From Oscillospiraceae bacterium (lineage in GTDB: Bacteria; Bacillota; Clostridia; Oscillospirales; Oscillospiraceae): a stretch of 64,000 nt of DNA. The notes below the pieces were generated by a model, which saw nothing but the letters and a program-made list of their open reading frames with translations, ran no database searches and was not told the origin of the DNA. This document shows positions 1,416 through 58,239 of this stretch, piece after piece (position 1 is the stretch's first letter; the number at the start of each line of letters is the position of its first letter). Position numbers and translations under genes: made by a program. The stretch lies in contig CAJTGJ010000001.1 in the NCBI GenBank assembly GCA_910575695.1, positions 248,001 through 312,000 of the forward strand. The letters are read 5' to 3'.

Positions 1416-2103
1416 CCCCCCTGGCCCCCCCGTGGGGGGACGCCCCTGCGGGGGGCGTTACTTTCTCTCACGTGAGAGAAAGTAACCAAAGAGAACGCTT
1501 AGGGGGAGGCCCGCCGGACGGACGCTGCGCGTCCTCAGGCCGGGCCTCCCCCTAAGAACCCCCTGTTTTACGGGGGTGCTCTATACGGGATATATGGTGT
1601 TATGTTCCGGCGCGCAGGGTCGGGATGTATTCCCCCCTGTTTCTGCTGCCGCCCATTTGCAGGCACTGTAACAGGGTGGGGTCCACGGACTGCGCCTCCT
1701 GCGGTGGACCTTACCCGACGCGGTGGGGGTTAGTGCTTCTACCCGCCGTGGCTGGTAAGCTGAAACATTTCTCACCTAACCTCAATCGTCCAGGCGGGCG
1801 CGTCTGCCCGCCGCAGAGCGATGTCCGGCGCCATTCAGGCGTTCTCAGGAGAAACCAAAATCATCAGTACCCCACCCACGCAGGCCCCAGTGGGCCGGGA
1901 AACGAAGGGAAATCCATCCGCAAAGCCGCACAAGCCGGAAACCCACCTCCGCACCAAAAGCGGCGTGCCCTTGCCCTTAACGGGGGATTCTTAAGGGGGT
2001 GGCCGTCCTGAGGACGCAAAGCGTCCGCCGGCGGCCACCCCCTTAAGCGTGTCTTTGGTTACTTTCTGCACGAGCAGAAAGTAACGCCCCCGGCAGGGGG
2101 GAT
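1416..2103. repeat. Interspersed fold-back repeat, copy 1 of 3 (~690 bp)
   Basis: This non-coding block recurs at 45871-46562 and 51299-51996 in the same orientation. It begins with a GC-rich hairpin, then a palindrome (arms TTACTTTCTCTC / GAGAGAAAGTAA around ACGT), then a long hairpin with arms CTTAGGGGGAGGCCC / GGGCCTCCCCCTAAG. A core of about 410 bases follows. It ends with a second long hairpin (arms CTTAAGGGGGTGGCC / GGCCACCCCCTTAAG) and a second GTTACTTTC palindrome. The two ends are long inverted repeats of each other. The core also holds a perfect GGCGGGC / GCCCGCC hairpin. A truncated relic of the left end precedes it at about 1394-1413. It fills the gap between two divergent genes. 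Confidence 0.9.
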
Positions 2104-45870: not shown

Positions 45871-46562
45871 TCCCCTGGCCCTCCGGTGGGGGGACGCCCC
45901 TGCGGGGGGCGTTACTTTTCCCACGTGGGAAAAGTAACCAAAAGGACGCTCAGGGGGAGGCCCGCCGGACGGACGCTGCGCGTCCTCAGGCCGGGCCTCC
46001 CCCTGAGAACCCCCTGGTTTTACGGGGGTGCTCTATACGGGGGATTTTTTTGGGGGCTTCCGGCGCGTGGGGCCGGGATGTATTCCCCCCTGTTTCTGCT
46101 GCCGCCCATTTGCAGGCACTGTAACAGGGTGGGGTCCACGGGCTGCGCCTCCTGCGGTGGACCTTACACGCCGCGGTGGGGGTTGGCGCTTCTACCCGCC
46201 GTGGCTGGTAAGCTGAAACATTTCTCATCTAACCTCAATCGTCCAGGCGGGCGCGTCTGCCCGCCGCAAAACGATGTCCGGCGCCATTCAGGCGTTCTCA
46301 GGAGAAACCAAAATCATCAGTACCCCACCCACGCAGGCCCCAGTGGGCCGGAAAACGAAGGGAAATCCATCCGCAAAGCCGCACAAGCCGGAACCCCACC
46401 TCCGCATAAAAAGCGGCGTGCCCTTGCCCTTAACGGGGGATTCTTAAGGGGGTGGCCGGCCTGAGGACGCGAAGCGTCCGACCGGCGGCCACCCCCTTAA
46501 GCGTCCTTTTGGTTACTTTTCCCACGTGGGAAAAGTAACGCCCCCCGCAGGGGGAAGGGGGG
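45871..46562. repeat. Interspersed fold-back repeat, copy 2 of 3 (~690 bp)
   Basis: Same orientation and architecture as copy 1. Terminal palindromes have arms TTACTTTTCCC / GGGAAAAGTAA around ACGT on both sides. Inner hairpins are CTCAGGGGGAGGCCC / GGGCCTCCCCCTGAG on the left and CTTAAGGGGGTGGCC / GGCCACCCCCTTAAG on the right. By eye about 16 differences separate it from copy 1 over 430 core bases. It occupies the whole gap between hfq and the adaptor gene and ends some 15 bases from the hfq stop. The left and right ends match each other inverted over roughly 130 bases. Confidence 0.92.
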
Positions 46563-46576
46563 AGCAGGAGGGGGGG

Positions 46577-46822
46577 CTACCCCTCCAATTCCACCGGATG
46601 CTCGGGCGCGATGGTGGAGATGGCGTGTTTGTAAATGACCTGCTGCTTGCCGTCGGACACCACGACCACCACGTAGGGGTCAAAGGCGGTGATGATGCCG
46701 CGCATCTGGTAGCCGTTCATCAAAAATACGGTGACTCGGGCGGCGGCGCGGCGGGCGGCGGACAAAAAGGCGTCCTGAATGTTTGGCTGTTTGAGGACAG
46801 CCGCAGTGGTTGTCAAGCTCAT
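46577..46822 (-). CDS. hfq: RNA chaperone Hfq
   Basis: 81 residues. The Sm1 motif is NIQDAFLSAARRAAARVTVFLMNGYQMRGIITAFD and the Sm2 motif is VIYKHAISTI (the usual form is YKHAIST). Hfq hexamers bind small RNAs and mRNAs. It follows miaA by 36 bases, the arrangement conserved in many bacteria, with AAGGAG before ATG 46822. Confidence 0.96.
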   Translation of the reverse strand: MSLTTTAAVLKQPNIQDAFLSAARRAAARVTVFLMNGYQMRGIITAFDPYVVVVVSDGKQQVIYKHAISTIAPEHPVELEG

Positions 46823-51254: not shown

Positions 51255-51298
51255 CCCCCTGCTTCCCCCTTTTTCCCGTGGGGGCGTTGCTTTCTCTC

Positions 51299-51996
51299 CC
51301 CCCTGGTCCCCGTGGGGGGGGACGCCCCTGCGGGGGGCGTTACTTTTCCCACGTGGGAAAAGTAACCAAAAGGACGCTCAGGGGGAGGCCCGCCGGACGG
51401 ACGCTTCGCGTCCTCAGGCCGGGCCTCCCCCTGAGAACCCCCTGGTTTTACGGGGGTGCTCTATACGGGGGATTTTATTTGGGTTTCCGGCGCGCGGGGT
51501 CGGGATGTATTCCCCCCTGTTTCTGCTGCCGCCCATTTGCAGGTGCTGTAACAGGGTGGGGGCCACGGACTGCGCCTCCTGCGGTGGGCCTTACACGCCG
51601 CGGTGGGGGTTGGCGCGTCTACCCGTCGTGGCTGGGAAGCTGAAACATTTTTCGTCTGCCAAACATTTGCAGGCGGGCGCGTCTGCCCGCCGCAAAGCGA
51701 TGTCCGGCGCCATTCAGGCGTTCTCAGGAGAAAATCAAATTTCCAGTACCCAACCCATGCAGGCCCCAGTGGGCCGGAAAACGAAGGGAAATCCATCCGC
51801 AAAGCCGCACAAGCCGGAAACCTACCTCCGCACCGAAAGCGGCGTGCCCTTGCCCTTAACGGGGGATTCTTAAGGGGGAGGCCGGCCTGAGGACGCGAAG
51901 CGTCCGGCCGGCGGCCACCCCCTTAAGCGTCCTTTTGGTTACTTTTCCCACGTGGGAAAAGTAACGCCCCCGGCAGGGGCGTCCCCCCGACAGGGA
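51299..51996. repeat. Interspersed fold-back repeat, copy 3 of 3 (~700 bp)
   Basis: Same orientation as copies 1 and 2 and the most diverged. Its end repeats are the clearest: about 51304-51437 matches the reverse complement of about 51865-51995, so the two arms are roughly 130 bases each. A segment near 51655-51675 differs completely from the other copies and is one base shorter, which breaks the internal reading frame. A partial left-end relic (GGGGGCGTTGCTTTCTCTC) precedes it at about 51280-51298. It separates the phosphoesterase gene from mnmG. Confidence 0.9.
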
Positions 51997-56092: not shown

Positions 56093-56100
56093 TATCTCGG

Positions 56101-56200
56101 CCAGCCTCCCAAGCGTTGTTTTGGTTATTTTTTCCACACAAGAAAAACAGCGCCCCGGCAGGGGGAGAGGGAGAAAATAACGCCCCGGCAGGGCCCGCGC
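56101..56200. repeat. Degenerate solo right end of the 690-bp repeat
   Basis: GGCCAGCCTCCCAAGCG, then TTTTGGTTA and GCGCCCCGGCAGGGGG follow the same order as the right end of the full copies (GGCCACCCCCTTAAGCG, TTTTGGTTAC, GCCCCCGGCAGGGG). The palindrome has decayed. A second partial AACGCCCCGGCAGGG follows. Confidence 0.65.
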
Positions 56201-58154: not shown

Positions 58155-58239
58155 GGTGCGGATGACGGGACTCGAACCCGTACGGCCGTGGGCCACTAGC
58201 ACCTCAAGCTAGCCAGTCTACCAGTTCCAGCACATCCGC
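58154..58239 (-). tRNA. tRNA-Leu (anticodon GAG)
   Basis: 86 bases with CCA encoded. The acceptor stem is GCGGATG / CATCCGC with discriminator A, and the D arm has CTGGTAGAC. The anticodon arm is CTAGC-TTGAGGT-GCTAG, giving GAG, which reads CUC/CUU leucine codons. The long variable arm is typical of leucine, and the T arm has GTTCGAGTC. It is transcribed from its own promoter and ends at the shared terminator. Confidence 0.96.

Follow-up and report, generated by a model that had tools for sequence, protein, structure and literature searches.

The window studied here, the whole 64,000-nucleotide stretch of DNA from an Oscillospiraceae bacterium, contains three copies of a hairpin-ended block set between genes, and the question is what such a block is and how it came to be repeated. 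The initial annotation offered two readings, a non-autonomous fold-back element or a repeated large structured RNA. Our preferred answer, to which we give a probability of about three in four, is that the blocks represent a new family of non-autonomous mobile elements that are moved in trans, homogenised by recombination and able to swap their cargo. The mobility of the element is well supported, and the family, which resides in certain gut-type bacteria and in phages of these, is apparently undescribed. The copies in the window, and one fragment, are as follows.

1416 to 2103, plus strand: copy 1, short form, between two divergent ORFs
45871 to 46576, plus strand: copy 2, short form, including the C-rich flank outside it, directly next to the hfq stop codon
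51299 to 51996, plus strand: copy 3, short form, between a metallophosphoesterase gene and mnmG
56098 to 56171 (C1:304098-304171), plus strand: right end module fragment, 76% identity, E 1e-7

The blocks at 1416-2103, 45871-46562 and 51299-51996 had been described as full copies in a shared orientation, lying between genes and encoding no transposase, and all of this proved correct. Each measures 688-698 bp, and identity to copy 2 is 92% for copy 1 and 93% for copy 3. Copy 2 with its C-rich flank directly adjoins the hfq stop codon at 46577-46579; the ORFs on either side of copy 1 were not named by family search. Because of such C-rich flanks, the outer boundaries of the elements in the source genome are uncertain. 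Half palindromes (GCG.TG.TTTCTCTC-like), possibly remnants of older ends, lie immediately beyond the left end of copy 1 (1399-1413) and that of copy 3 (51284-51298).

The initial annotation had suggested a whole-genome search; run with copy 2, it returned 10 nearly full copies, nine on contig C1 and one on C3, together with left halves, right halves and fragments. One of the ten, C1:147079-147717, has a shortened left end. The genome also holds one long copy (C1:70436-71897), whose cargo comprises a Pfam-confirmed HTH gene and two further ORFs, one also HTH-like and one of 56 aa. Nearly all copies are on C1, which accounts for 356 kb of the 5.06-Mb source assembly (G000). Genus mates have 1.7-3.8 Mb, with one exception at 5.8 Mb; given this difference in size and a contamination of 6%, the source assembly may be mixed.

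Each element consists of two structured arms of ~270 bp in inverted orientation, and each arm of a terminal module followed by an inner arm. From the outside inward, the module contains an outer GC hairpin (H1, CCCCTGC-GGGG), a GTTAC hairpin with a short loop (H2, GTTACTTT...AAAGTAAC), a short spacer mirroring the H2 purine arm, referred to here as the third strand, and finally a long GC hairpin (H3). The parts of copy 2 are listed below, with H1 and H4 assigned from sequence.

45896 to 45910, no strand: H1 left, outer GC hairpin (GCCCCTGCGGGGGGC)
45911 to 45938, no strand: H2 left, type A, GTTACTTTTCCC-ACGT-GGGAAAAGTAAC hairpin
45940 to 45945, plus strand: left third strand AAAAGG, mirror of the H2 purine arm, triplex-compatible
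45949 to 46007, no strand: H3 left, long GC hairpin CTCAGGGGG...CCCCCTGAG
46010 to 46028, no strand: H4, CCCCCTGGTTTTACGGGGG hairpin of the left arm
46013 to 46436, plus strand: non-coding core, made of left inner arm, short middle and right inner arm
46438 to 46506, no strand: H3 right
46505 to 46510, plus strand: right third strand CCTTTT, mirror of the H2 arm on the plus strand
46512 to 46539, no strand: H2 right
46540 to 46554, no strand: H1 right

The inverted ends, put earlier at about 130 bases, resolve in copy 2 into 118-nt arms (45897-46014 and 46436-46553) that are 89% complementary and 421 nt apart. The single architecture claimed for the blocks holds in the three copies and needs one refinement, namely that the block is modular and that long variants elsewhere carry genes.

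The stems of H2 and H3 vary across relatives with compensation. In copies other than copy 2, H2 is of type B or C, the changes again being compensatory, and the H2 sequence types keep their pairing (TTTTCCC/GGGAAAA, TTTCTCTC/GAGAGAAA, TTTCTGC/GCAGAAA and stems with GTTCC/GGAAC bases). Left and right H2 types can differ inside one element, and the inner cores are mosaics. The 56 end modules that were parsed measure 100-122 nt and contain two or more hairpins each. Perfect palindromes can arise by template switching at replication, for which selection is not needed.

The spacer tracks the stem as well. Over 42 distinct stem/spacer combinations from genus, family and IMG/VR contigs, positions 4-7 agreed with the mirror in 107 of 168 cases compared to 61.3 in shuffled sets; 0 of 20000 shuffles reached as high, a figure that is no strict probability because the combinations are related. 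Within the genus alone, agreement was 27/36 compared to 16.6 shuffled. Among the exceptions, a C in the arm often faces a G in the spacer. An intrastrand triplex would require just such a mirror third strand, and the sequence is compatible with one forming; the covariation of that strand is an evolutionary signal in keeping with a triplex-like structure of the nucleic acid. The closest known counterpart of H2 is the intrastrand triplex motif, which has a different sequence. The TM-ECO motif likewise combines a stem with a mirror third strand, may form an intrastrand triplex and is repeated in genomes, the triplex being predicted in the present case (PMC4666352). By inspection, the A/T-containing H2 with its GTTAC base, which is part of a larger mobile element, differs from the G/C-rich TM-ECO consensus, and neither GTTAC nor GTAAC occurs in the main text of that paper (PMC4666352).

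We compared orthologous sites in relatives, all of which are draft genomes. For the hfq-HlyD site, 30 loci were read from 41 matching genomes, and an HlyD-like match followed in all 30. The element was present in two and absent from 28. The gap measures 734 bp in the source genome and 1168 bp in G011, the two filled cases, against 40-307 bp in the 28 empty ones. G011 is filled and its sister in the tree, G010 (94/78), is empty. Of 42 loci at the phosphoesterase-mnmG site, 30 were read: five had a full end pair, one a half and one a relic, and 23 had no end module. Hence the sites are filled in some relatives and empty in others, rather than occupied at a fixed position in all of them, and the empty sites that the initial annotation proposed to look for exist at both loci.

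The interiors at the mnmG site differ between genomes. The source genome has the short form, G010, G011 and G038 have an HTH gene and a DUF6809 gene, and in G039 the HTH gene is accompanied by a different small gene. The half element belongs to G016, where it is located behind an intervening gene, and the relic, which lacks ends, to G035. A single locus thus presents the same ends with different tiny gene cassettes between them. On the phosphoesterase tree, the mnmG pairs require three changes, four when the relic is added and five with the half element. Placing the pairs and the relic in one clade was not rejected (AU p 0.116), so part of this pattern could be loss; placing all seven carriers, including the half element of G016, in one clade was rejected (AU p 8e-8). 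The half element of G016 may be a separate insertion. The same gap of G014 (L152) contains a repeat of another kind, in which the beginning of mnmG is duplicated together with a further GC-rich insert.

End modules at loci of the genus mostly form convergent pairs, and some are single. Among 23 distinct convergent pairs, 11 enclose cores of 197-362 bp, two of 516-577 bp and nine of 827-1194 bp; the remaining pair (1655 bp) is doubtful, with a weak left end and unrelated genes inside. All nine cores of 827-1194 bp contain two small divergent ORFs, so that in the long forms a two-gene cassette stands in place of the short non-coding middle. The product of one gene is either HTH_3 or ribbon-helix-helix-like; that of its partner is DUF6809, a protein of 53-60 aa or, again, ribbon-helix-helix-like (for ribbon-helix-helix, matches fell short of the Pfam cut-off or were missing; the score of one DUF6809 partner was also under its cut-off). 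Against PHROGs, the HTH protein matched phage-type regulators and the partners had no match. A defence role for the cargo was rejected, given that PADLOC matched only HTH-type models to the HTH proteins and none to the partners. DUF6809 was likewise rejected as a marker specific to the element: it occurs in 34 of 42 genus genomes, including some without an element match. It is a multicopy family of small proteins, with 15 matches in the source genome and 16 in G021, and is named in no paper of the literature searched.

A strict pattern of the ends matched 10 of 400 genomes of the family (7 of 106 genera) and, among 398 genomes of the phylum, the source genome only; these counts are lower bounds because diverged ends are missed. 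The exact type-A motif was present in 14 stretches of a collection of named genomes; every one came from a MAG with the label Oscillospiraceae, Clostridiales, Bacillota or uncultured bacterium.

The highest copy number was found in G402, a genome of another genus with 97 strict-pattern matches. It has at least 40 element places (41 matches, two being pieces of one place, with 40 of 255 candidates scored), 32 of which cover at least 530 of the 568 query bases. In 30 copies, the unit runs out to an outer GGGGGCCTCCGGCCCCC-like hairpin at either side, for a total of ~670 bp, and lengths in 26 measured copies are 640-731 bp. The flanks beyond the outer hairpins look unrelated. A comparison of neighbouring genes at eight loci, one ending at a contig edge, lacked conserved gene order and carries no weight here. 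The copies at L183-L212 have a core with repeated palindromic units (GTATACGGAAATCT...GTAGTGGAACGGAGCA), unlike the core in the window. Target duplications, which the initial annotation had proposed to seek, were not significant in G402 (44 compared to 35.9 shuffled, p 0.076; 27 copies, one misread at a contig edge), and insertion would therefore proceed without the usual footprint. The element resembles a classical MITE in its terminal inverted repeats and in having no transposase in the block, and differs from one in this result.

Elements of this kind also occur in phages. The loose H2 pattern was found in 30 stretches of IMG/VR, and end modules in eight IMG/VR contigs, of which L107, L118, L124, L127, L131 and L133 were called by inspection of H2, spacer and H3, and L126 and L122 (partial) by nhmmer. 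In a PHROGs test of the nearest ORFs on seven of the eight contigs (all except L124), the neighbours of end modules matched terminase, major head, portal, tape-measure and tail or sheath proteins; no family was found for two of nine ORFs (L126 and L122, wrong strand) and for one of four in a second set. L126 has a window-type end (nhmmer E 2e-35) just upstream of the major head gene. End modules lie near a major head protein gene at L126:4018-5203, L118:3668-5022 and L122:3845-4615, and this recurrence may reflect a site preference or selection. Phage morons are small extra units between phage structural genes. The element is alike in this position; it differs in that its short form has no gene and that it is also a multicopy chromosomal repeat.

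Many other IMG/VR stretches have the H2 hairpin and mirror spacer alone in other contexts, and some may be chance matches. Among L104-L133, the GTTACTTT..AAAGTAACCAAAR hairpin with its mirror third strand recurs without H3 in many contigs. The H2-mirror motif may thus be wider than the element family. Full copy 2 had no match in the phage and plasmid collections, and a 60-base end gave weak matches (E 0.4-4) to three plasmid records, all from Subdoligranulum. In L293, one of these (Subdoligranulum variabile plasmid OY725847.1, 28203-31238), a GTTACTTTCTTA hairpin with a CAAAGA spacer occurs twice, ~340 bp apart, together with variants; the nhmmer matches there are H2-sized only.

The filled and empty orthologous sites, the at least 40 copies in G402 and the occurrence in phage contigs together support the fold-back, non-autonomous reading. 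We nevertheless considered whether the elements spread mainly by homologous recombination and phage transfer after rare ancient insertions, and not by transposition. The mosaic ends and cores, the half elements, the related cargo shared by G010, G011 and G038 at the same site and the carriage of elements by phages are all in keeping with such a history. It seems unlikely to us, in light of the many G402 copies that have matching ends at different sites and of the contrast between filled and empty sister genomes at hfq-HlyD.

For the mobile element that we favour, a putative recombinase or transposase, provided in trans, would recognise the terminal hairpins. Homologous recombination among copies would then homogenise the ends and swap the interiors, and gene cassettes and short forms would therefore exchange at fixed sites, while phages would ferry elements between hosts. 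A bolder version, which we put forward only tentatively, is that the hairpin and third-strand ends point to a new transposition chemistry, in which an enzyme reads folded, triplex-like single-stranded ends and leaves no target duplication. The interior would be swapped as a cassette, and phages and chromosomes of Oscillospiraceae would trade small regulator genes, two at a time, at fixed positions between genes; the enzyme is possibly phage-borne.

The second reading of the initial annotation, a repeated gene for a large structured RNA (e.g., a regulatory or ornate phage RNA) that is transcribed and acts as RNA, appears quite unlikely. It is favoured by the strong compensatory covariation in H2 and H3 and by the end modules near phage head genes. 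It is also favoured by the G-U pairs of H3, which occur on the outward strand in 54 of 1396 pairs and on the inward strand in 25 of 1381, a weak bias among related sequences; per end, 26 lean outward, eight inward and 22 are equal. This mild strand bias keeps the option in play, although G-U makes up just 2-4% of H3 pairs. The 692-nt strand of copy 2 folds as essentially one hairpin (-439 kcal/mol; z -15.2 over 20 dinucleotide shuffles of the whole block), but the core, taken by itself, shows no unusual stability (z -1.75 and -0.99, with 100 shuffles in each case). The block contains no promoter-like site, there is no excess of promoters or terminators, and protein genes replace the interior at the same locus. 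No Rfam family matched the element in the window at gathering score, and the 20 matches at E<=10 were unrelated, low-scoring and all under their gathering scores. A coding core was ruled out separately: all 25 core gaps in the other nine full copies relative to copy 2 are 1-2 nt long (these events not being independent), and the short core is therefore non-coding.

We also searched for an enzyme that could mobilise the element. Y1_Tnp was present in four of 15 carriers and five of 21 non-carriers, with no clear association, and was absent from both G402 (98% complete) and the source genome. Y2_Tnp was present in none of the 15 carriers and one of the 21 non-carriers. The IS110 DEDD transposase occurred in eight of 15 carriers and eight of 21 non-carriers at E<=0.001 (seven and seven over the cut-off), again with no clear association. 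The Y1 and Y2 transposases were rejected as the mobiliser, and IS110 is a doubtful candidate; neither contig C1 nor any locus that was read yielded an autonomous parent with the same ends.

These counts bear on the view that the blocks are mosaic repeats of REP/BIME type, moved by RAYT (Y1) or by another single-strand HUH transposase that acts on hairpins. The abstract of the REP/RAYT paper describes REPs as 20-40 bp long, with RAYT transposases and GTAG and CGTC families (PMC3733652). Like these, the element has hairpin ends, intergenic sites, palindromic and mosaic modules, frequent inverted dimers and no target duplication. Unlike them, it has multi-hairpin ends of 100-122 nt, optional gene cargo and no association with Y1; by eye, no unpaired GTAG or CGTC tag stood out at an end. 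Taken with the Y1 and Y2 results, we consider this view very unlikely; the words 'Firmicutes' and 'Clostridi' do not appear in the text of that paper (PMC3733652). That the blocks are bidirectional terminators or insulators repeated by happenstance is hardly credible, despite the GC-rich stems shortly after the stop codons at copies 2 and 3, since one terminator-like site was found against 1.3 expected and copy 1 lies between divergent ORFs.

In behaviour, the closest known systems are REP/BIME and the TIMEs of the Tn3 family, and membership in them fails on the features tested (Y1 link and unit size for the former, target duplication for the latter). TIMEs are small, transposase-less, inverted-repeat units that can carry genes and form mosaics, with 38-bp Tn3 inverted repeats and target duplications of 5 or 6 bp (PMC4133298). 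The element shares the small transposase-less unit, the optional genes and the mosaics, and differs in its ends, which are hairpin modules of ~115 bp, and in having no significant target duplication. Searches of the open-licence literature turned up no paper describing the element, in agreement with the earlier remark that no described family matches.

The mobile element reading thus adds an apparently undescribed family of small elements to Oscillospiraceae and their phages. The ~40 copies of G402 and the filled and empty sister genomes make it a natural test case for finding a trans-acting transposase. Elsewhere in the window, a tRNA gene (Rfam RF00005) at 58157-58239 on the minus strand is the sole Rfam match at gathering score.
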